Assembly: GCA_025765595.1 (NCBI GenBank)
Contig: JAIVFH010000021.1
Span: 310,001-374,000, forward strand
Direction: 5' to 3'
From: Obelidium mucronatum
Taxonomy: Eukaryota; Chytridiomycota; Chytridiomycetes; Chytridiales; Chytriomycetaceae
Length of the DNA: 64,000 nt
The first letter of the stretch is position 1. Each line of letters begins with the position of its first letter. The notes under the pieces were generated by a model. That model ran no database searches. It had not been told where the DNA came from and saw nothing but the letters and a program-made list of their open reading frames with translations. Positions 1 to 19,107 of the stretch are shown piece by piece. Position numbers and translations under genes: made by a program.

Positions 1-770
1 TCAATGGCAGTAACGTCAATGGGCTCGTAACGAAGTCCTTCACGTTCGTACTCCGAGCGAATAAACGCCTCCATGTCCGCACGAGTGTCCTCCAACGAAC
101 GATGCCCACCGAAATCAGAAGGAATTAGGGAAACATCCATAAAGCTGGATAACTCCTCCGGCTTGAGAAAGTGTACTTTAGGATAAGATGCACTTTTTAC
201 AATTCGTAAAAGTGTGTTCCAAAGTCGAGTGGTGACCTTGCTGGCATTGAAAACATACAATGTAGCATCATTGCTTCGATAAGGATTACAGGCAACCGCT
301 TCTTCTGTTCGCTTGTACTGGCTTGGTCGAAATTGCTTGATGTTGAAGCCTTGCAAGTCCACAAATAGGTTATGGACATGGTTCCCGTCATCGTTGCGCG
401 AAATCCGAAAGTGAGTCCACATGTTAAAGTTGGCATAATGCTGTTTAGGAATTTCGCGTTGTTCCTTGGAAGTCCGGAGAAGAAGGATTGGTGTTCCATC
501 GGGGCCTTTGGCATTTGGCAGGAATGTAACAATCTCGGTCAGCAAGAAGGCGTGAATATGAACGATGGAAATCCTCTTGCTTTGGTGGCCAAGAATCTCT
601 TGATGCCACTTGGCGCAGTTAGTCAGAGTCTTGATTGTTTTGGCCACATCGTTTTTATGGTAGACCAGGGAGTTGGCGATGGTGTGTGGATCAAAGTTGG
701 CATCACGAAGGAAACTGTCCTTCTGGATCCGCTCTTGAAGATCGGCGAGAGATAGTTCGTGAGATGTCAT
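1..770 (-). CDS. CRAL-TRIO (Sec14-like) lipid-binding protein, N-terminal part
   Basis: An uninterrupted frame runs from the ATG at 770 to the window edge (256 codons), so the C-terminus is missing. Residues about 90-222 read like a CRAL-TRIO lipid-binding fold: the strand FVDLQGF (136-142), the segment LYVFNASKVTTRLW (171-184), then a stretch resembling the usual loop before the lipid gate, and IPSDFGG (216-222), which matches the PxxYGG end motif of Sec14 domains. The first 70 residues are helical and charged, as in a CRAL-TRIO N-terminal region. Members of this family bind or transfer phosphoinositides and other lipids in the cytosol. The ligand cannot be told from the sequence. No introns are seen. 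It is transcribed away from the LPMO-like gene at 1138. Confidence 0.72.
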   Translation of the reverse strand, partial: MTSHELSLADLQERIQKDSFLRDANFDPHTIANSLVYHKNDVAKTIKTLTNCAKWHQEILGHQSKRISIVHIHAFLLTEIVTFLPNAKGPDGTPILLLRTSKEQREIPKQHYANFNMWTHFRISRNDDGNHVHNLFVDLQGFNIKQFRPSQYKRTEEAVACNPYRSNDATLYVFNASKVTTRLWNTLLRIVKSASYPKVHFLKPEELSSFMDVSLIPSDFGGHRSLEDTRADMEAFIRSEYEREGLRYEPIDVTAI

Positions 771-1137
771 CAGGTTTAGCAGAAAACACGGAGAAAACCC
801 TATTTATCTACACTTGAGTTCTTCAATGCCAAGGCGGTCTCGGGCATTTAAGTTATGCAACAGCTTGCTTCCAACCAACAAAGGACCAAGGATTTTCACG
901 TTTCTCATTATTCTAATAAGCATACGGTCGTCGTTTTCATGCTTTACTTCTGTTTGACATACCAACGAATAAGTAGTGCTTGCAAATGTTAGTCTGTTGT
1001 TCTAACCGTGAAGCGCACATTGAAAATATGACAACATGAGTGACACATTTCATGAAACTGAATTTCGGACGGCCCCCCATGACCGCACACACAGAAAATC
1101 TCTTGAGAAATCTGTTTCAAAACTTTCTCCTCCAATC
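771..1137. other. intergenic region, probable divergent promoter
   Basis: This stretch separates the minus-strand CRAL-TRIO gene from the plus-strand LPMO-like gene and probably holds both promoters. The reading frame of the LPMO-like gene is open back to an upstream ATG at 1036. That ATG is not preferred because it would bury the signal peptide. No RNA gene or repeat was seen. Confidence 0.4.
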
Positions 1138-2461
1138 ATGCATTTCCTTACCTCGGTGGCATGTCTTTTGGCGGCAAGTGACTATGTAGTGGCCCACGGA
1201 ATGATGAACTGGCCGATCGCAAGAATCCTTCCTGGAGATCAACAAAACGGATATACTTTCAACCGTGCAGCATCCAACCGAAACACCGCCGTTCACCCAG
1301 ACCCAGATATCAACTGTGCGTATCTCCCCAAAGGTTCCGTCTTTACACAAGTGATGGCACCAGGTGCAGCTACTGTGGATTACACAATCACGGCTTGGCA
1401 CAATGGTGGATGTATCATCACACTGTCCCAAGACAACCAGAAGACATGGACGAAAATCGGGGAAGATAAAACGTGTGGAATCCAATCCAAGAATCCAAGT
1501 GGACGTGGCTCTATCAATGTCGTGATGCCCAGTGGAACTTACAATGCCGTTCTTCGTTGGACCTACACGGCTGACAACGGCGGTTCACCCAATGAAATTT
1601 TCACCAACTGCGCAGATATTTCTGTTTCTGCTTCCGGAAATAATAAGCATGATAAGGTTGAGTTTCTTGGACCAGCGGCAAGTGGGTTTGTGGCCCTGGC
1701 GAAGTCTCCTTCAAAGTACTTTGACTCTTCATGTCCATCTGCTGGTGCAAGCCTGTGTTCCTCCAATAAGGCTTTTATAAACAAATGTATTAAGCTTGGT
1801 GCTGGAGGCGGGTTTCCAGGTGGTAGTTCGTGGTACTCAATTCAATGTCCATATCGGCAGTACTTGCAAGTCAGTAAACGGCGTTGATACCTGTTCTGGC
1901 TCTGGAGTACCACCTCCACCAACCTCCAAAGTGAGTTACAGTTCGAATCCCACTCTCTGATAACCAACTTTTCACTTAGACAACCAAGAGGCCAACTAAG
2001 ACAACGAAAAAGGTGAATGAAATTAGTTTCTACTTATAATCTTCCATATTTACAAGGTTTCTTACATAGACGGTCAAAACAAAGACTGTGAAAAAACCAT
2101 CCAAACCAAAGACAAAATCTACAGTAAGCTGGGAACTTCATTTACACTCAAAACTTATACACACACATAGACCACAAAGAAAGCGACAGCCACCACTCCA
2201 CCAAAACCAAACAATGGGAAACCATGCCCAGTGACAGCGGACAACTCCCTCCTTTTACCAATTCCAAAAGGAAAAACTTGCGTGGACGTCAAGCACGCGT
2301 GCCAAACATACTGCTTTGACAACAAGTGGTATGAAATTCAACGTAACCAGTGTTTCTCGGAAGACCCTGTTAAAAGTACGGCCATTCAATGGTGTCAATG
2401 CAATAACGTCATTTACTATGGAGTTGCTTTCGGAAAACCAACCACGGCCTGTCCCAAGTAG
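1138..2461 (+). CDS. secreted LPMO-like protein (N-terminal copper-site His) with Lys/Thr linker and Cys-rich C-terminal domain
   Basis: I chose the ATG at 1138 because it gives a 19-residue signal peptide ending just before His-20 (VVA|HGMMNWP). An N-terminal His after cleavage is the hallmark of lytic polysaccharide monooxygenases, and a second candidate His lies in AWHNGGC. The module runs to about 1819. Inferred introns are ~1823-1874 (needed to restore frame; GTAG...TCAG, could instead be an indel), 1931-1979, 2013-2069 and 2124-2170. The exons between them (1980-2012 and 2070-2123) encode only Lys/Thr/Pro linker, and all three later introns are in phase 0. The last exon (2171-2461) encodes a domain with eight to nine cysteines, possibly a binding module. 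The likely role is oxidative attack on chitin or another polysaccharide outside the cell; the exact AA family was not recognised. Confidence 0.62.
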
Positions 2462-2533
2462 CAATCGTATTTTCTTTGATTTCAATTGGCATTTATTTGG
2501 TTTTCGAATATCAGCATAAAAAGAAAAGTAGTT

Positions 2534-4146
2534 CTAATCCTTGTGACACAATACTTGGTACTTTTCTGCCTTCACTTCCTCGCCATCGAAAGGCACTCTT
2601 GCGCAACCAAGGTGCGGTGCGACACCGCCAACAGCATATCCACCCTTATGGGTTTCAAAACCCAAAAAGGTTTCCTTTCCAACGGGTGCTCTAGCGATAT
2701 AAAACAAGTTTCCGTCTTCTTCAACTCCGGCAGCAACAGCGTTCTCTGGGACTTCACCATTTTCAGCAGCCACCCATTCAGTATCCGCCAAAGAAGCAAG
2801 GACTTCATGACCATAATTGATTTGGACTTCGCGTCCAAAGTAATTGACATACGGTACTTTGTCAGTCGCACGGATTTTACCCAATCGAAAAGCGGAACCA
2901 ATCTTGACACGAGCCACATACAACTCGACGCCATCAACGTCTTCTCCGGCTTTTTGAGCGTTTGGTGGAACACCTCCACCCGGTGGCATATCGATCCAAT
3001 GGTCTTGCAATCTCATTGATTTTATAAGCTTTTGTGCACGAGTGTCTTCCGGATTGGCGCTCAACGTGTCTCCGTTCTGGAGCAAAAGAACTTTGTCTTC
3101 CTTGGCATAGTAAACGATGGATCCGAATTCTGGGACAACTTCGACAGCAAGTGGAGTGAATGTGTCGGGTGATGCTTCCTTGAATGTGCTGTGTCCGATT
3201 TCCTTGTAAATGATGGAAACGAGTTCTGAACAGAAGACGACTGTCTTTGGTTCTTCTTGTCCGGGGAAAAAGTTTGATGTCAATTTGGACCAGTATTGAA
3301 GATCTTCGTAAAGAGATTTCGATGCAGAGGCAACAACGGGTAAAATGTTTGTGATTGGGTCTGATATTGCGCTTAGTATTTGTAAGAAAGGAAGACACAT
3401 ATTTGAGAACTACTTACAACCAAAGTCCTTGTACTTGTTGTACAAATCCAAAATCAAGTTTGGATTCTCCTTTAACCGTTGCTCCAAGAATGCACGGGCG
3501 TCAGGACTCAACGGACAGATTCCAACATCAGAGTCGCCTTCATTGACGACCGCAGCAAAGTCTCTAATTTGGGGACCCAAGTGGAAACTACCGACTTTTG
3601 TTGGATGATCCACTGGGAGAACCTTGGAATCTTCGCCAAATTGTTAACGGAGGCCGCTCGCTTTCACTTGACACTTACAGACGTAACCAGCCACAGTCCC
3701 ACTGAACACCGACTCATACAGGTACAGCTTTCCTTCTTCTAGACAATCCAACGGTAAGACTGTTTTATCAACAATGATTCCAGCATGCGTCCAGAGCTCT
3801 GGCAGACAGAAAACGTTTTAGTTCAAATTTCACAGATCGCAACTCTCACCATGAAACGGCTTATCGATCCGGGGCACAACTTCATGCAGAGTAATTTTCT
3901 TGATAATGTTTGCAACTGGATCATTTCCCGCAAACAAGACAGCATCCAGCGGCTGCAGAAACAATGTTAACCAGGAAACAGGGTTCAACACCCCACCTTC
4001 AGCTTGTATGTTTGTCCTTCAACCAAAGCCTCTGGCAGTGCATTCACAGTGAAGACTCCGAGAGTTTGCTCGGTTACTTCTTCGTCGTCTTTGGTTGTCA
4101 GTTCTTGGAACTTGTTTTTGATCTTGTCGAAAAAGCCTCCAAGCAT
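2534..4146 (-). CDS. permuted papain-like amidase fused to two DM9 repeats, copy A (intact)
   Basis: Exons are complement(2534..3360, 3418..3630, 3679..3798, 3850..3952, 3997..4146), giving 470 residues with all frames joining. Residues about 45-290 look like a circularly permuted papain/NlpC-P60 (YiiX/LRAT-like) fold: the candidate catalytic His is in ELWTHAG (His about 89) and the Cys comes later in VVFCSELV (Cys about 239), the permuted order. Residues about 310-470 are two DM9 (DUF3421) repeats: WIDMPPGGGVPPNAQKAG, then GGYAVGGVAP and a terminal YQVLCHK. DM9 proteins are known as mannose-binding or pathogen-response proteins in animals. There is no signal peptide or TM segment, so it is probably cytosolic. 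It is one of five copies in the window. The substrate (lipid, peptide or cell-wall amide) is unknown. Confidence 0.75.
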
Positions 4147-4207
4147 GGTGTTTCGATTTTGAGATGTTTTTATTTATTTTGGTGCTCAATAATCGCTTCT
4201 CGATCCA

Positions 4208-5832
4208 TCAGTTCTTATGGCACAACACTTGGTAATGATGGGCCTTGACTTCTTCTCCAGCAAATGGAACTCGGGCACCCTTCAAATTACGTGCAACTCC
4301 TCCACAAGCATATCCACCCTTGTGTGATTCAAAATCCAAGAATTCTTCTTCGCCAACTGGAGCGCGAGCAATGTAAAACAAAGTTCCATCTTCGGAAACA
4401 CCAGCCTCAACAGCATGCTCAGGAACCTCGCCACCTTGTGCCGTAACCCACTCGGTTCCCTCCAACGATGCAAGAACTTCATGACCGTAATGGATCTGGA
4501 TTTCATGCCCAAAGTAATTCACGAACGGAACTTTATCGGTAGCACGGATTTTACCCAATCGATAGGAAGCTTCCAATCTTGACGCGTGCAATGTATAGTT
4601 CAACACCATCAATATCATGTCCCGCTTTTTGAACGAGCTTGCTCGCAGGAACTCCGCCTCCAGGTGGAATATCAATCCAGTTCTTTTGGAATCGGAACGA
4701 GTTGATCAATGCTTCAGATCTTGTGACAACGGGATTCGAACTGACAGTATTCCCATTCTTTAAGCGAAGGACCTTGTTTTCTTTGGCGTAGTAAATAGTG
4801 GATCCGAATTCAGGGACAAGTTCTACTTCGAGCGGGCAAAACGTGTCTGGCGAGGCGGACTTGAAGGACGCAAGACCGAATTCCTTGTAAATCACGGATA
4901 CGAGCTCCGAGCAAATATAACAGGACTTTTTTTCTTGCTTCATCAGGGAAAAGTTCAGCGCTCAACTTTTCCCAGTCCTGAAGTTCCTCGTAGAGAGACG
5001 TGGAAGCGGATGCAATCACGGGCAAAATATTGGTGATTGGATCTTTGTTTGGGAAATAAGCTATTGACCGAATCCAAAATAAACGAACTTACATCCAAAG
5101 TCCTTGAATCGATTGTATATATTCAATAGCAGTTTCGGCTCTTCCTTTAATCTTGCTTCCAAGAAGGCGCGTTCTTTTTTGCCAAGAGGGCAAATTCCAA
5201 CGTTGGCGTCACCATCGTTAATGGCGGCTTCAAAGTCTCTCAGTTGCGGACCTAAATGACAGTCCCCTACTTCGGTAGGATGATCGACGGGAAGAACTTT
5301 GGAATCTGTAAAATAATGATTTTCAATTTTCATGGTTGGTTACACAGCCACACTTACACTCGTAACCAGCCACTTCTCCACTGAAGACTGATTCGTAAAT
5401 ATAGAGCTTTCCTTCCTCGAGGCAGTCTAGCGGTAGAACACTCTTGTCCACAAGGATCCCGGCGTGTGTCCATAGTTCTGATCAGTGAAACGTGGTCGGT
5501 CAAAATCTGATTAGTCGTGATCAAAATATAGTACCTCGGAACGGACGATCAATTTTCGGAACTACTTCATGCAATTCAATGGTCTTGATGAAGTTAGCAA
5601 CGGGATCACTTCCTGCAAAGAGGACTGCGTCGAAGGGCTGTAGAGATGTTAGATCTAACAAAAAGAGTGACCCTGCCCGACATGCCTTCAATCTGTATGT
5701 CTCCCCTTCCAGAACTACTTCTTTTGCCGAATTCACAGGAACGGCTTTCGGCTTGGTTTGGGTTTCATCGTCTGAGTCTTCTAAAAGCTTGTCGAACGCG
5801 TTTGAGACATCATCAACGATCTCAGACAACAT
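4208..5832 (-). pseudogene. amidase-DM9 family, copy B, with two single-base frameshifts
   Basis: Exon positions mirror copy A: 5686..5832, 5535..5637, 5358..5477, 5093..5305 and 4208..5042, and the three middle exons have identical lengths (103, 120, 213 nt). The amidase His (ELWTHAG) and Cys (YICSELV) are present. Two one-base insertions break the last exon: one in an A-run near 4930, before the catalytic Cys, and one in GGAAGCTTCC near 4568, between the DM9 repeats. Removing both restores a full-length frame of about 471 residues. The first intron position holds a 48-nt segment (5638-5685) that begins GC instead of GT and is open in frame. It may be a GC-AG intron or an exonised intron. 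It is either a decaying copy or an active gene with consensus errors. Confidence 0.66.
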
Positions 5833-5952: not shown

Positions 5953-7583
5953 TCACTGCTTGTGACACAGCACTTGGTAATGATGAGCCTTCACCTCTTC
6001 CCCATCATATGGAACTCTGGCTCCTCCCAAATTTGGAGCAACACCTCCAACCGAATATCCACCCTTGTGCAAGTCAAAACCAAGGAACGAATCATGTCCG
6101 ACTGGAGCGCGAGCAATGTAAAACAAGGTCCCATCTTCCTCAACACCAGCCTCAACCGCATGCGATGGAATTGATCCTCCTTCAGCCGTTACCCACACAG
6201 TGTCGTCCAAGTTGGCGAGGACTTCGTGGCCGTAATTGATTTGAACCTCACGTCCAAAGTAATTGACATAGGGAACTTTTTCATTCGCGCGGATTTTGCC
6301 TAACCGGTAAGAGCTGCCAATCTTGACGCGTGCAATATATAATTCAACGCCGTCGACATCTTCTCCGGCTTTTTGAGCGTTGGGTGGGACTCCGCCGGCT
6401 GGAGGCATATCGATCCAGTGGTCTTGCAATCGCAATGAGTTGATCAGCTTTTGTGCGCGAGTTACGACGGGGTTCGCGCTCAAAGTGTCGCCGTTTTGCA
6501 AAAGAAGAACTTTGTCTTCCTTAGCATAGTAAACAATGGATCCGAATTCTGGAACAACTTCGACAGCAAGTGGAGTGAACGTGTCTGGGGAGGCGGTCTT
6601 GAATGTGTTGTGACCGATTTCCTTGTAAATGATAGAAACCAGCTCAGAGCAGAAGACGACAGTCTTCTTTTCCTTATGTGGAAAAAAGTCAGTTGAGAGT
6701 CTGGAAAAGTATTGCAGATCCTCGTAGAGAGATTTAGATGCAGATGCAATCACGGGAAGGATGTTTGTGATTGGGTCTAAAGTGGTGCGTTTAGAAATCG
6801 ACTCCTTACGGTTATTGTTTCACTCACAGCCAAAGTCCTTGTACTGGTGATACAAATCGAGAAGCAAGTTTGGATTTTCCTTGAGTCGAGCTTCCATGAA
6901 TGCGCGTTCTTGGGGACTCAACGGGCAGATTCCAACGTCAGAGTCGCCTTCATTGACGACTGCAGCAAAGTCTCTAATTTGGGGGCCCAAGTGGAAACTG
7001 CCGACTTTTGTTGGATGATCCACTGGAAGAACCTTCGAGTCTAAGGAGAGAGATTCGTCAATTTTGATGATGTTCATGCAGGTGCGCCAGCCACTCCTTA
7101 CAGACGTATCCAGCAACTTCACCACTGAAGACAGACTCATACAAATACAGCTTGCCCTCTTCTAAACAGTCCAGAGGCAGGACACTCTTGTCCACAAGGA
7201 TACCGGCATGTGTCCAGAGCTCTGCATCAATGAGGTTCAGAAAAAGTGGGAAAACGTGGATAGAAATGAGGCAGACATACCATGAAACGGTTTCTCGATT
7301 CTGGGCACAACTTCATGCAGCTCGATCTTCTTGATGAAGCTTGCAACTGGATCATTGCCGGCAAACAGAACAGCATCGAGTGGCTGCAATGGCATTTGTT
7401 AAACAGCCCGCCAAGGCTGCTGTTCCTCACCTTCAACTTGTAAGTTTGACCTTCCAGCAGCGCTTCAGGCAATGCAGTGACAGTAATCAGTCCTGGCTGC
7501 TCCTCTGCGACTTCGGCAGTGGCTTGGTGGCCAACGGTGAGCTTTTGAAATTCGTTCTTGAGCTTGTCAAAGAATCCGAGCAT
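5953..7583 (-). CDS. permuted papain-like amidase fused to two DM9 repeats, copy C (intact)
   Basis: Exons are complement(5953..6776, 6828..7040, 7102..7221, 7281..7383, 7431..7583), summing to 470 residues, the same as copy A. The start at 7583 (MLGFFDKLKNEF) matches the N-terminus of copy A; the frame is open further upstream but only through non-ATG codons. The candidate catalytic pair is His in ELWTHAG and Cys in VVFCSELV. Two DM9 repeats follow, with PPAGGVPPNAQKAGED and VGGVAPNLGGARVPYDGEEV. The middle exon sizes 103, 120 and 213 nt are shared with copies A and B, so the three are recent tandem duplicates. The N-terminal 45 residues are acidic and differ between copies, unlike the enzyme part. 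It is probably functional. The reaction is inferred from fold only. Confidence 0.76.
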
Positions 7584-13061: not shown

Positions 13062-14417
13062 ATGGAAAACAAAGCGATGGCCGTGATACTTCTTTTGGTG
13101 CTTTTTCTCTCGGCTTCTGCTGCAAAGCTTGTTCCCCCAGACGACAAGATTATATTTGGAGCGTGGCTTGACACGTCAAGTGGCCCAGTGAGCGGCAACG
13201 ACAGTCCTTCAGCATTCAACAAACGGATCGGATTCAACACAGGTTTCATTTTCTCTAGTTCTTTGATTTCCGCTTCACAGTTTTCACTAAGCTCGAATCT
13301 CAAATCACAGGCTCATTCCAGATATGGCAGAACTTGCCTCCTCAACCCCCCAAACAAGAAGCGGATTTGGGAAACCATAACGCCGATGGGACCATCAAAA
13401 TGAGTGTTTTCGATGATGGAACACTTGCGTCTATCTTTCTCACTGTGTATCCCTTGGATTTGGATTTCATCACAGATCAGCATATTCTGGATCTCGCGAA
13501 TCAATGCAATGGCATCAAGGTACTGTGTACAATCCTATTTGTCTTAAATTGTCTAAAAAGAACTCGGAAAACATTCATTTTCTCAACTCTGCAGAAAACT
13601 ACAAATCGAGACGTGTTTCTTCGACTTGGCCCTGAAATGAACGGAGATTGGTTCAAATATGGAGGAAAACCAAAAGCTTTTATTTCACTCTGGAAACGCG
13701 CGCATGGAATCATTAGCAAAACAGCTCCAGAAGTCCCTTTGATCTGGTCTCCCAATTACAACGGCCCAGCAAACAAAATGCCCTATGATCCATATTGGCC
13801 TGGCGAAGAGTATGTGGACTGGATCGGCATTTCAGTGTACTGGAAAGGATTTGCAAATGTTTATCCTTGGGCTAACGAATGAAGAAGCACCTTCCGACTT
13901 TGTGGCACAGTTGATTGATGCTCAAGGTCCTGAAGGCGGCCCAGTCTCCATCTATAGAGAATATGCTGTGAAATATAACAAGCCATTAGTTATTGCCGAA
14001 TCGGCTGGAACGTTTCATTTAGCGACTTTGGATGCCAAAACAGGGGAATTGGCGGCATTAGACCGAGGGGCAGGAAGAGAGAAGACTGTCATGGTGAGCA
14101 ACAAAAAAATTAGAGTTACATGTGTTTTATGTTTATACTACTTTTTTTTGGTGATGGTGCAGAGCTTTTGGAATTCGTTTTTATTCAAGCCAACATTCTA
14201 TAACGAGTTTCCACTCGTGAAAATGATTTTCTGCTTTGAGATGGTTAAAACTGAAGACATGGATACCGTGAATGATTACAGAGCTACGCACGATCCAGCA
14301 ACGTTAGCGGCGTTTGTGCAAGGACTGAATAACTTGGATGGCACCGGAAAAGTGGCTTGGGCATCATCATCAACGCATTCAAAACGGGAGTTTAAAGTGG
14401 AGGAATATCGCCGATAG
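13062..14417 (+). CDS. GH26-like secreted beta-mannanase
   Basis: Exons are 13062..13242, 13311..13519, 13595..14093 and 14163..14417. The N-terminus has a signal peptide (AVILLLVLFLSASA). The likely acid/base Glu is in RLGPEMNGDWFKYG (about 13615-13660), matching the GH26 R-x-x-x-E-M-N-G-x-W signature. The nucleophile Glu is in LVIAESAG (about 13995). The end, EFPLVKMIFCFEMVKTED, matches the FPKLKxxxxFE pattern of fungal GH26 proteins. One base near 13880 shifts the frame between YPWANE and EEAPSDF; both sides align to the family, so an indel error is likely. It would cut beta-1,4-mannan (or a related glucan) outside the cell. Only 67 nt separate its stop from the next ATG. Confidence 0.66.
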
Positions 14418-14484
14418 TTGAACGCAAAATAATTAATGTATCTCTTCATTTATTTGCTTTTTTCCAATTAATTCACTGTATTCC

Positions 14485-16059
14485 ATGGCACGCACGAAGC
14501 AAACAGCGAGAAGAGCAAGATCGCCGATCGCTCCAGCTGCTACTTGTGTTCCAAATTCTTCTTCTACTTCTCATCCTCATCAGGATTCAACTGATGAAGA
14601 CACTCCTCCGCTTAGTCCGCCAGTCCAAACTGGTTCAACTGATAATCGGATCACTGTCATCAACAACTCATCCCTGACACGCATCAATCTCGGCATGGAT
14701 TTTCTTGAATTCTCTACTATGGCAACCGTAGAATCTGGCAACGCACAAGAAGTGAGCCTGAGAAGTTTCTCAAAGTGCTTTATTAGCCTCTCCCAAGCGG
14801 GCGGAGTTGTCCTGAAGGAAACAGAAGATGCGAAATGGTGCACTTGGGTTCAGGAATGGTCAACGTCATACGGTGTATGGGCCAAACCAGGCGCTGTCCT
14901 AGAGTTCTGCAACGATCCAAAGAATCCGCCACTTTCTGCAAAAGAATACCAGTCGATCGAAAAACTTCTCTTGTATTACATTGAAGATTCACCTCCTTCT
15001 GGTGCGCAAGACTCTATCGATGTTTGGAGTCTAATTACGAATCATCTCCGTCGCAATTCATCAACCCCAAAGGAACTCCACGATCTCTTTTTCAAGACAA
15101 ATCAAAGACCCACGCCTTGGAATCAGCTGTATGCCCCTGTTTCTGTGAAGAATTCGTATGCAACTGCCATTCGAACCGCTCTGAAAGAAGGGGACTTTTG
15201 AGGTCCATGCATACTGGAGGGTGCTTGACCGCTTTCCTGGTGGGAATTGTGAAAACATCACTTCAAAGTATTGTTTTTCGTTTGTGAATAAGGAGTTGGA
15301 TGTCCGGGCGTCGAGCTTTGTGCAATTGGGATGGCAATCCCTTTTATTCGGGGTCGTACAATCCTTCTCTCATTGACTCAGAAAAAGCAACATCAGCAAA
15401 TTTTGAAAGTTTATTCGTGGGGCTTTTGAATGATACTACCAGCGTATCGAGTGGTGGTGCCTTTGATTGGACATGTAATCACTGGGACTTCATTTCGCAA
15501 GACAGAGAAGAGTATAATTCTGAATGGTCTTCTCAGGAGGTGCTACTCTATATTCCGGTTCGCTGGTCTCCTTCGACTCATCGCTTGTTACTCTGAAAAT
15601 ACTAAGCAAATGTTTGTTGGCCTCGCCTTGGTGAATCTTTGTCAGAAAAAGCGACTCCCAAAAGAACTTCTGTTTCTCATTATGGATCATGCGACGAGAT
15701 ATAGTAGAGATTTCTTGAAACACGAATCAGGTCGAGGAAGTGGAGCTCTTGTAATGCGATTGCATCGTGAGACTCGAATGGGGCCGCAGCTCTACCAATA
15801 CGCCAGAAGCGTGGAAGGGGATCCAGAATTTATTGAGCCCTCTGTTGCTCAATCGAAAATTTTGTGTGAATTGGATGAAATTGTTGGAATTGGCAGGCCA
15901 GTTCAATGGCTTGGTGTTTACGATCACGAAGAAGAATACGATGGTCGAATTTCAAGGGCTGGTATGGATTCTCGTGATAGAGGAAATGATAGAGATGAAT
16001 TCGATATGAGAGAATATGGTTACGCACACCCAATTTACCTGCGTTGGAGTCAACCATAA
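14485..16059 (+). pseudogene. histone H3-tail-mimic family, copy 1 (MARTKQTAR start), with frameshifts
   Basis: The predicted protein starts MARTKQTARRARS, identical to residues 1-8 of histone H3 once Met is removed. The tail is followed by a Ser/Thr/Pro-rich stretch (about residues 14-52), then a body that begins RITVINNSSL and contains GVWAKPGAVLEFCNDP. Later blocks include WSSQEVLLYIPVRW, an F-box-like LPKELLFLIMDHA, GSGALVMRLHRETR, EIVGIGRPVQW and a terminal HPIYLRW. The frame shifts near 15198 (T-run), 15300-15325 and 15590, and copy 2 supplies the expected continuation each time. The body does not match a domain I recognise; the first part reads like a beta-sandwich. No signal peptide. 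A nuclear, chromatin-reader-binding role is inference from the tail only. Confidence 0.6.
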
Positions 16060-16094
16060 AAAAACTGTTAGAAAACCGTTGAAGTCTAACCTAT

Positions 16095-17537
16095 ATGGCC
16101 AGAACAAAACAGACGTATCGACGAGAACAACAAAGCCGACCTTCTCCCTCCGCAATCTTTGTTCCTGCCTCCGCATCTTCCAGCTCAGAGGGTTCAGTCA
16201 CTGAAGCTCCGAGTCCACCTGTGTGGACTGGATCACACGCAAGCAGCATCACAATTATCAACTCGGCGATAATTCCACTCAGTATTGCCGCTGAATATTC
16301 AGATTATGCTTCTATGGTGACGATACCTGCACAACAATCCCAAAAAGTCTTTTTGGAAGGTTTCTCAAAAGCCTTTGTAATTGCCAACAGCGCCGCAGGA
16401 GTCGTTTTCAAAGAAACGTCTACCTTGAAGTGGACCACCTTGGTGAAGTCTTGGGGGACAGTCTGGGGAGTCTGGGCCCCAGCTGACGCTGTTCTAGAGT
16501 TTTGCGATGATCCTCAAAACCCACCATTGTCCCTTAATGAATTCAGGCAAATCGAATTCAAATTGATGCACGAAATTGAACACTGTCCAAGGCCTGACGC
16601 TGAGTCAATTTGGACTCAATTGGCTCACTCTCTCAATCGAACATCCGCTGATGATCTCAAACGCATCTATGGCGGGTCCCCTCATAAACCCTCATCTTGG
16701 TCAACGATGTACCGCCAGGAAATGTTGAATGAACTTCATCCCCCCATGGAGCACATTTTGGCTGCTTTAAAGGCCGGAACATTTGAAATTCACGCATATT
16801 GGAGATGCCTTGACTGGTTTCCTGGCTACTCGTGTCAAGATGTTACAACAAAATATGTATTTTCGTTTCATAACAAAGAACTGGAACTTAAAGCGTACAC
16901 GTTCATGAATGAGGACAAGAATCCTGTCTGTGTGGGACCTTACCCACCTCATCAAGCGAAATTGGAATTGGCGACCGCAGCGAGTTTTGAAAAGCTATAC
17001 TCTGATATTTTAAAGGAGTCCAGTCGATCTACGGATTCTCGCCACTGGGAGACGGAAGACGTGATGGAATACAGCCCAGACTGGTTCTCGCGAGAAGTCT
17101 TGCTTTATGTACCAATTAAATGGACTCCATCAACCCATCACTTATTCCCACAGTCTACGCAGAAGATGTGTTTGGGTCTATTACACGTCAACCGACATGT
17201 CTCGAAGAGTCTACCCAATGAGCTCATTTATTTAATAATTCAGTTCGCGTCCTACAATGATTTTTCTCCTATGGTAGAGTCCGGTTATGGGAATGGCGCT
17301 CTGGTATACATTCTTCACGATTTGAATATCTGTGGGATGAATGAAAGTGAAGAAGAGCTTTTGGAAGTATTGAATGAAGTTGTTGGAATTGGAAGCCCTA
17401 TTGAATGGACAGGGAATGGGTTTGAAGATGGTGCTGAGCTTATATCAAGAGCGGGAAAAGATTGCCGTAGCGCACCAAGAGTTGAAGGTCTTTGGAACGA
17501 TTTTGGTTGTATTCATCCCATCTATATGCGATGGTGA
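16095..17537 (+). CDS. histone H3-tail-mimic family, copy 2 (MARTKQTYRR start), intact
   Basis: A single 480-codon exon, open throughout, starts only 35 nt after copy 1. The N-terminus MARTKQTYRREQQ matches H3 residues 1-6 and 8. A Pro/Ser linker (about 14-50) leads into SITIINSAII, then GVWAPADAVLEFCDDPQNPP (about 130-150), a conserved Trp-rich region with AYWRCLDWFPG (about 236), WFSREVLLYVPIKW (about 335), an F-box-like LPNELIYLIIQFA (about 376), NGALVYILHDL, VVGIGSPIEW and the final CIHPIYMRW. No TM or signal peptide, so it is probably intracellular. The family was not recognised. The intact frame of this long copy argues that the family is expressed, and it serves as the reference for copies 1 and 3. 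Confidence 0.78.
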   Translation: MARTKQTYRREQQSRPSPSAIFVPASASSSSEGSVTEAPSPPVWTGSHASSITIINSAIIPLSIAAEYSDYASMVTIPAQQSQKVFLEGFSKAFVIANSAAGVVFKETSTLKWTTLVKSWGTVWGVWAPADAVLEFCDDPQNPPLSLNEFRQIEFKLMHEIEHCPRPDAESIWTQLAHSLNRTSADDLKRIYGGSPHKPSSWSTMYRQEMLNELHPPMEHILAALKAGTFEIHAYWRCLDWFPGYSCQDVTTKYVFSFHNKELELKAYTFMNEDKNPVCVGPYPPHQAKLELATAASFEKLYSDILKESSRSTDSRHWETEDVMEYSPDWFSREVLLYVPIKWTPSTHHLFPQSTQKMCLGLLHVNRHVSKSLPNELIYLIIQFASYNDFSPMVESGYGNGALVYILHDLNICGMNESEEELLEVLNEVVGIGSPIEWTGNGFEDGAELISRAGKDCRSAPRVEGLWNDFGCIHPIYMRW

Positions 17538-17719: not shown

Positions 17720-19107
17720 ATGAATAGCAACAAAGACACCGTCACAGTCATAAACCTGACATCAATTAACGGCTTTAATATCTCGTTGAACTTTAAGGGA
17801 GTCTTAAGGCGCGATACCTACCCGTGCTTTGTTTCCACTCAACAACCAACGAAACTGAACTTGAACTTGGCGCAATATGAATACTACACACTGGCGAGAT
17901 TGCCCCCGGGTACTGATGCTGTTATCGTTGATTCATGTGGGAAAGTTTCACGTGTAAACTCAGCAATGCTTTGCCAGACCCTCGCTCATTCCACACTCAT
18001 CATTTACAACTGCCCAAGATATCCACCGTTGTCCATCGAGCAAATTAAAGATTCACAAAAACAGCTTGTATCTGAACTCGAGAATACTTCCCCGTTAATG
18101 CTTCTGAGATTTGATAAAGTCTATCGTTCGTTGGCCAATACCCTCAATCGACCAGCTCATCTTATTCGTGACTATGTATTATACTCTGGACTCCCCTATC
18201 TAAATTGGATGGACTTATACACTCCAGTAAAATTGTCGCCTCATGTTCCCCTTAAAATCGTGCAGAAAGCAATCAATGACGGGACGTTTGAAGTCCATTG
18301 CTACTGGAGAGAGACTGATCACCCAAGCTGCATTAAGAGCCGTAATTTGACTGCAAAATATGTCTTGTCTTTTTCAACGGGTGAGAAACGGATGGACGTC
18401 AACTGGATAATCAGCGTTGTTGGGAATAATGGTTTCAGACGGCTTCAAAGCGGCTCTCTAGAAAGAAAAAAAGCTCGGTCGGCTCGTCAATTGCAGCAGC
18501 TGCTTTTGAATTTCGTTAATGATGGGAGTTTTAGTTCGAATTCCACTGTTCAGACGCTAGAGTATCACTTGTCAAATCATCGATACATGGAATGGTCGTC
18601 TCAAGAAATCCTCGTGTATATTCCCAGTACCATGGTCATCCTCCACATGCCACTTGTTCTCGCCATCAGCTCGAATGATAATCAGAATATTGGGGAAGAA
18701 GTCAGGACTTCCTCCTGAACTCCTCCATTTTATCATGAACCTTTCAACCGATAATTCAAATTCACGCGAATTCTCTACTCCGGAATCAGGCGGCGGAACA
18801 GGAGCTCTCGTGATGCGACTTCACCAAGAAACTCGTATTGTTAATTATCTCCACAACAAGGATGCATTGGATTTGTTGAAAAAACCAACCCCTGACCAGA
18901 AAATGCTGCTTCAAAGATTCGGAGATGTAGTTGGAATTGGAAAGCCGATGAACTGGAATGTTGTCTTTGCGAAAAATCCAGAAATTGCTGATGGCAATAA
19001 CACGTCTGCTGCAGGCCCTAGCGTGTCATGCAGTGTTAAGCAAAACACAACCCACTGTTCCATATGAAGCTCGCAATGTTCAACCGCTTTACTTGAGATG
19101 TTTGTGA
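17720..19107 (+). pseudogene. tail-less paralog of the H3-mimic family, copy 3, frameshifted
   Basis: The protein begins MNSNKDTVTVINLTS, exactly where the body of copies 1 and 2 begins, so the H3-like tail and linker are absent. It shares PRYPPLSIEQI, GTFEVHCYWRETD, a WSSQEILVYIP block, the F-box-like LPPELLHFIMNL, GTGALVMRLHQETR, DVVGIGKPMNW and a final ARNVQPLYLRCL. Frame changes occur near 18626 and near 19040; after both, the homology resumes and ends at a TGA at 19105-19107. It is more diverged than copies 1 and 2 are from each other. It could be a functional tail-less form with consensus errors, or a decaying copy. Confidence 0.58.

Follow-up and report, generated by a model that had tools for sequence, protein, structure and literature searches.

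The window analysed here, a 64,000-base stretch with a G+C content of 45.0%, corresponds to bases 310001-374000 of the 391,968-base contig C21 in the assembly (48.3 Mb in 694 contigs) of Obelidium mucronatum, an aquatic chytrid fungus of the Chytriomycetaceae. Three tandem paralogs lie on its plus strand, directly downstream of a gene of GH26, which we take to be a mannanase family. The GH26 gene (13062..14417, +) was recognised by a Pfam match and by comparison with a protein of the chytrid Siphonaria; it contains introns, bears a frame break near 13880 and ends with a stop codon 67 bases before the first paralog (copy 1). No GH26 gene lies directly before copy 2 or copy 3. More GH26 copies were observed within 10 kb left of the window, and two C-termini among them are rich in Ser, Thr and Pro and then run into hydrophobic, GPI-like ends, which the gene at 13062-14417 does not have. 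Tandem DM9-repeat genes were also observed in the window at 2537-3409 and 5956-6819 (-), with further, more diverged DNA matches at 20.5-23.6 kb.

Copy 1 is open over 238 amino acids (14485..15201, +), a part that by reading frame and composition comprises an H3-like tail, a Pro/Ser/Thr-rich linker and the first part of the body. Its remainder, which looks pseudogene-like, was traced in shifted frames over 15185..16059 (+) by tblastn of copy 2 and of the Siphonaria ortholog, and the search with copy 2 placed frame breaks near 15190, 15322 and 15588. A preliminary description of this DNA had presented copy 1 as a protein; this holds for the reading frame up to 15201 only, the homology continuing to about 16059 through the three breaks. 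Copy 2 (16095..17537, +) is an intact reading frame of 480 amino acids without a Pfam or PDB sequence match and is the only carrier of the tail seen intact over its whole length. Copy 3 (17720..19067, +), found by tblastn and protein search, is a third paralog without the tail and corresponds to the partial NCBI hypothetical protein BDR26DRAFT_858102. It has one frame break near 18622, and the NCBI protein omits 43 bases as if they were an intron; these bases are homologous coding sequence in another frame. The reading of copies 1 and 2 as a single one-frame fusion was ruled out, as their frames differ and stops lie between them. A whole-genome search with copy 2 returned eight matches, representing the tandem cluster, a piece on contig C25 and a C-terminal relic on contig C139.

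Judging by composition, the tail appears to sit on a flexible linker of about 40 disordered-looking residues: P, S, T, A, G or Q make up 65-66% of the first 52 residues of copy 1 and the first 50 of copy 2, and large hydrophobic residues make up 10-16%. The following body of approximately 430 residues is presumably folded. The body of copy 2 had no match in Pfam at E up to 5, and PDB searches with a single sequence or a profile gave no sequence match at E up to 10. An LP-x-E-L/I motif near the C-terminus presumably recalls the start of an F-box, for which Pfam gives no support. The rest of the protein had been described as unrelated to H3, in agreement with Pfam, which returned no histone match for the copies; a genome-wide histone search gave 55 matches, none of them at the places of this family, and no histone fold was found after the tail in the copies.

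The H3-like starts and their occurrence in the genome

Copy 1 opens at 14485 with the sequence MARTKQTARRARS, and copy 2 opens at 16095 with MARTKQTYRREQQSR. According to the reading frame and the codon comparison, the first start (14485..14514, +) encodes M-ARTKQTARR and the second (16095..16124, +) encodes M-ARTKQTYRR, so the letters of the H3 tail are found at both positions where the preliminary description had read them. After the Met, eight of nine residues are shared. That description had also stated that all eight use different codons in the two genes, and our comparison agrees: the codons in copy 1/copy 2 are GCA/GCC for A, CGC/AGA for R, ACG/ACA for T, AAG/AAA for K, CAA/CAG for Q, ACA/ACG for T and AGA/CGA for each of the last two R residues, while the remaining position is A (GCG) in copy 1 and Y (TAT) in copy 2. 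Copy 1, copy 2 and the related copy on contig C25 all retain A1-T6 and R8 (H3 numbering). Position 7 is A, Y and H in these three copies, respectively, and position 9 is in each of them R and not the K9 of H3. From these letters, the K4 module (A1-R2-T3-K4-Q5-T6, plus R8 and R9) appears to be what was copied, and the K9 part of H3 is not mimicked. The features that define PAF15-type proteins, namely, a small residue after the Met, R2, K4 and a predicted N-terminal position, are likewise present in copy 1, copy 2 and the C25 copy.

In both genes the ATG reads as the natural start. For copy 1, the nearest in-frame stop is located at 14434, and the 48 bases between this stop and the ATG hold no AG, which excludes the in-frame joining of a canonical upstream exon. 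An upstream exon making the motif internal had been named beforehand as a finding that would speak against the H3-like start, and copy 1 has no AG acceptor in reach for one. For copy 2, an in-frame stop lies at 16080, leaving four codons before the ATG, and this stretch contains one AG with no clear pyrimidine tract before it.

We searched the whole 48.3-Mb assembly for the M-ARTKQT pattern (ATGGCNMGNACNAARCARACN) and obtained 13 matches: ten were the starts of H3 genes, as assigned by translation, and three belonged to the family of copies 1 and 2, namely, these two starts and, at the end of contig C25, a start nearly identical to that of copy 2. Seven of the ten H3 gene starts were open for the full 136 amino acids, and the other three (L012, L014 and L020) were interrupted at 108, 97 and 61 amino acids. 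The last of these, at G000:C465:3901-3920, runs out of frame after MARTKQTARKSTGGKA, and the remainder of its histone was matched separately at C465:3526-3876; it is either a pseudogene or an assembly error. The reversed pattern, used as a control, gave no match in the whole genome, and the chance expectation for M-ARTKQT was 0.042 under an assumed G+C content of 45% without neighbour effects. With 13 matches against 0.042 expected and none in the control, chance was ruled out as the source of the family starts. When the ATG was left out of the pattern, ARTKQT-x-R-R matched the genome only at copy 1, copy 2 and the C25 copy. Neither gene conversion from H3 nor the recent acquisition of the 5' end of an H3 gene was supported, because most codons of both tails differ from those of the ten H3 starts; the codons in common with them are AAG CAA in copy 1 and GCC AGA in copy 2. 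An older capture of an H3 5' end may still have been the source of the tail.

Conservation of the peptide in copies 1 and 2

According to the preliminary description, the peptide had been held while its silent sites diverged, and the comparison of the two genes bears this out. The nine tail codons show eight silent differences and one amino-acid difference, and residues 11-480 of the same pair are 42% identical (195/464 compared codons, with 6 codons omitted as gaps or frame breaks). Fisher tests gave P = 0.0060 for the tail against residues 11-480 and P = 0.016 for the tail against the linker (11-50), both values being nominal because the region was chosen by the finding. The pN between copies 1 and 2 was 0.16 in the tail, 0.43 in the linker and 0.38 in residues 51-480, where pS was 0.76 and saturated; thus, the proposed check of the tail codons against the body found the tail to be better conserved in this pair. 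In addition, 12 of the 27 tail bases differ between the two copies, and in a simulation, 12 random base changes kept 8/9 residues in none of 200,000 trials, with a maximum of 7/9. This result shows that the tail was translated in the stated frame in both lines and that its amino acids were kept. The 60 bases upstream of copies 1 and 2 are 20% identical in an ungapped comparison. Selection on the tail peptide is well supported, and there is good support for the conservation as protein of an exact H3 start, placed at the start codon, in two diverged paralogs.

As a separate observation, the codons differ for all eight residues common to the two tails, although in the rest of the two genes they differ for only 55% of the identical residues (107 of 195); the corresponding probability is 0.55^8, or approximately 0.008.

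It is also possible, although we consider it unlikely, that the N-terminus was conserved for some other reason, for example, as a basic targeting or nuclear-import peptide, as a stability signal or for a non-chromatin partner, its identity with H3 being a coincidence. The net charge of the first 16 residues (+5 in copy 1 and +4 in copy 2) is in line with this explanation, and so is the neighbouring conserved gene, which encodes a GH26 enzyme and is not a chromatin gene. Moreover, 5 of 472 nine-codon windows reached an identity of 8/9. Of the three places that they mark, one is the tail, and the other two, with windows starting at residue 132 and at residues 228-229, are stretches of the body that equal the tail in conservation. 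However, targeting needs charge and not an exact A-R-T-K-Q-T directly after the Met, for which only 0.042 occurrences are expected by chance. Mimicry of H3 is the likely, but unproven, reason for the conservation of the tail.

Relatives of the family and the copy on contig C25

Our protein searches, which reach only relatives sharing exact short words, so that more distant ones may exist, returned one protein with copy 2 alone at E up to 0.001 (copy 2 itself), two with the three-copy profile at E up to 10 (copies 2 and 3) and three with a copy 1 query that was read through using X, again at E up to 10. The sole foreign relative found was HDU68_009708 (P0003 in our analysis), a protein of 787 amino acids from Siphonaria sp. 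JEL0065 (Chytriomycetaceae), and the family was found here only in these two Chytriomycetaceae. One scan of viral contigs gave 47 pattern matches, with no relative among them. The body of the Siphonaria protein is 47.6% identical to copy 1, 41.1% to copy 2 and 34.3% to copy 3.

Pieces of residues 1-262 of the Siphonaria protein match the GH26 gene of the window, and residues 294-787 match the body; hence, the order of GH26 and body is common to Siphonaria and Obelidium. Part of this model reads KSSGLLLMVARVSTAQPIIPAAVFVP, and it contains no ARTKQ. From approximately residue 142, its letters are unlike the GH26 of the window, in a region where two Obelidium GH26 copies share FVAQLIDA-GPEGGP, and its exons are therefore doubtful. 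We conjecture that the ARTKQ of Siphonaria was removed by a false splice acceptor just before TAQP (TAQPIIPAAVFVP). The tail occurs in two of the three tandem paralogs; the single foreign ortholog model lacks it, and the junction in that model is doubtful.

The joining of GH26 and body in one protein, together with the 67 bases that separate the GH26 stop from copy 1, would suit a scenario in which the start has been misread and the body is the C-terminal part of a GH26 fusion, the motif being internal or intronic. We regard this scenario as very improbable. The all-silent differences show that the tail is translated in both copies, there is no AG available upstream of copy 1, neither copy 2 nor copy 3 directly follows a GH26 gene, and the Siphonaria model is itself doubtful from approximately residue 142, where it departs from the letters common to the two Obelidium GH26 copies.

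In a tree of four rows, copies 1 and 2 grouped together (99/97), with Siphonaria on a short branch and copy 3 on a long branch, which calls for the usual long-branch warning. The gene that split into copies 1 and 2 probably already had the tail. Read literally, the tree places the emergence of the tail on the Obelidium line before this split, and the tail would be older if the Siphonaria model hides it.

A second version of part of the cluster lies on contig C25 (L021), where bases 1-631 match window 15866-16501 at 96%. In this version, the end of copy 1 has a deletion of 10 bases, and copy 2 carries one additional whole codon, its only indel over 135 codons. Among these 135 comparable codons, copy 2 and its C25 counterpart differ by five amino-acid changes and one silent change (dN 0.017, dS 0.010), and there is no sign of strong recent constraint over this stretch. 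An additional ATG, opening a reading frame of 5 codons, lies 30 bases upstream of the copy-2 start in the C25 version.

At 633-5641 of the same contig piece, we observed an element of 5009 bases with identical 403-base terminal inverted repeats (TIRs), carrying a DUF6589 gene (873-3560, +) and a RecQ-like helicase gene (3584-5401, -). Its TIR has at least 34 matches genome-wide, and 9-base target-site duplications were present at all six other element insertions checked, from about a dozen with paired repeats; no such duplication was found at the copy on C25. The element is probably a young, large TIR transposon. We rejected the possibility that the C25 copy is a simple transposon-insertion allele, since no target-site duplication is present and the sequence beyond the element does not match the window and belongs to a different locus. 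From its sequence, we take that locus to be an IFT172-like gene. The C25 copy is better explained as a contig end, rearranged or chimeric, of the other haplotype. Equal-score PHD matches paired on different contigs suggest uncollapsed haplotypes.

Because of its frame breaks and the 10-base deletion on C25, copy 1 has probably become a pseudogene recently. Copy 2 may have a function, with strong present constraint not evident over the compared codons. A decaying lineage-specific family, in which the tail was once selected or inherited and the genes are now relics without present function, would account for the three frame breaks in copy 1 and the single ones in copy 3 and in the adjacent GH26 gene, for the C-terminal relic on C139 and the deletion in the C25 end of copy 1, and for the ratio of five amino-acid changes to one silent change in copy 2. 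We nevertheless consider such decay rather improbable: copy 2 is intact over 480 codons, its sole indel on C25 is one whole codon, the pN of 0.38 against a saturated pS of 0.76 in residues 51-480 indicates past constraint, and some of the frame breaks are possibly assembly errors.

A putative mimic of the H3K4 module

The explanation that we favour, with a probability of roughly 0.45, is that the tail is an N-terminal mimic of the H3K4 module, presented on a flexible linker to H3K4 readers, writers or erasers. From known biology, the initiator Met before Ala would be removed, and A1 would be exposed as in H3. The tail could then be bound by PHD fingers, Set1/COMPASS or LSD1-type enzymes, that is, by readers, writers or erasers of H3K4, and would either recruit these factors to whatever the body binds or compete with H3 for them. 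With R at the K9 position, only recognition of the K4 type would be copied. The Obelidium genome shows one Set1 N-SET match, 25 PHD matches and 7 SWIRM matches (counts that include likely haplotype duplicates); thus, the genome encodes candidate machinery for reading or writing such a tail. Copies 1 and 2 may have a chromatin role; nothing in the body points to the nucleus, and its conserved neighbour is a carbohydrate enzyme. A broader proposal, that a fungal lineage equipped a new non-histone protein with the exact H3K4 module, which selection maintained so that the protein is methylated by Set1 and read like H3 or serves as a decoy, is tentative and stands clearly below even odds. Under this proposal, the protein would represent an endogenous decoy or adapter for H3K4 signalling. 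A cellular protein with the exact ARTKQT start would test whether a non-histone tail can titrate or recruit the H3K4 machinery of a normal cell, and it would be a warning that antibodies and pull-downs directed at the H3 N-terminus may also catch other proteins.

N-terminal mimicry of H3 by other proteins is known. To our knowledge, this is the closest match to the H3 N-terminus on any non-histone protein, and among the matches listed in our literature search none dealt with this family or with a fungal non-histone protein that bears ARTKQT. PAF15 is a PCNA-binding protein whose sequence diverges from H3 after K4. SNAG proteins are zinc-finger repressors, and the SNAG domain starts with P-R-S-F-L-V; copy 2 differs from it in sequence and has no Pfam match to a SNAG domain or to zinc fingers. 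Chen et al. (2021, in Biochem J) reportedly described human proteins with H3 N-terminal mimicry, such as VRK1, in terms of Met removal, R2 and K4, and proteins of this type are said to share the pattern and not the exact H3 sequence. The N-terminal mimics named here (PAF15, Sgo1, SNAG and VRK1) have the pattern of the H3 start, not its exact letters.

Elsewhere among H3 mimics, EZHIP is reported to bear an H3K27M-like motif (PMC12713659). The AKER tail of Sgo1 is described as being bound by the BIR domain of Survivin in the manner of H3, with its free Ala copying A1 of H3 (PMC9253516). Sgo1 has only this A1-type feature in common with copies 1 and 2, and AKER differs from ARTKQT. The SNAG domain of GFI1 and SNAI1 is reported to be an H3-tail mimic that occupies and blocks the active site of LSD1 (PMC5896174). 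It is an N-terminal peptide mimicking H3 at an H3K4 enzyme, as proposed for copies 1 and 2, although its sequence is not ARTKQT. In PAF15, the N-terminal VRTK is reported to be read by the UHRF1 PHD finger (PMC7060239; PMC8034647), which binds this H3-like start with a Kd of 2.2 µM, compared with 1.5 µM for H3 (PMC7060239). There, a non-histone protein carries a copy of the H3 start at its extreme N-terminus, and this copy is read in the manner of H3 (PMC7060239; PMC8034647), as may be the case for copies 1 and 2. PAF15 starts with V instead of A (PMC8034647), whereas copies 1 and 2 have six exact H3 residues. PAF15 is the best precedent for the tail of copies 1 and 2.
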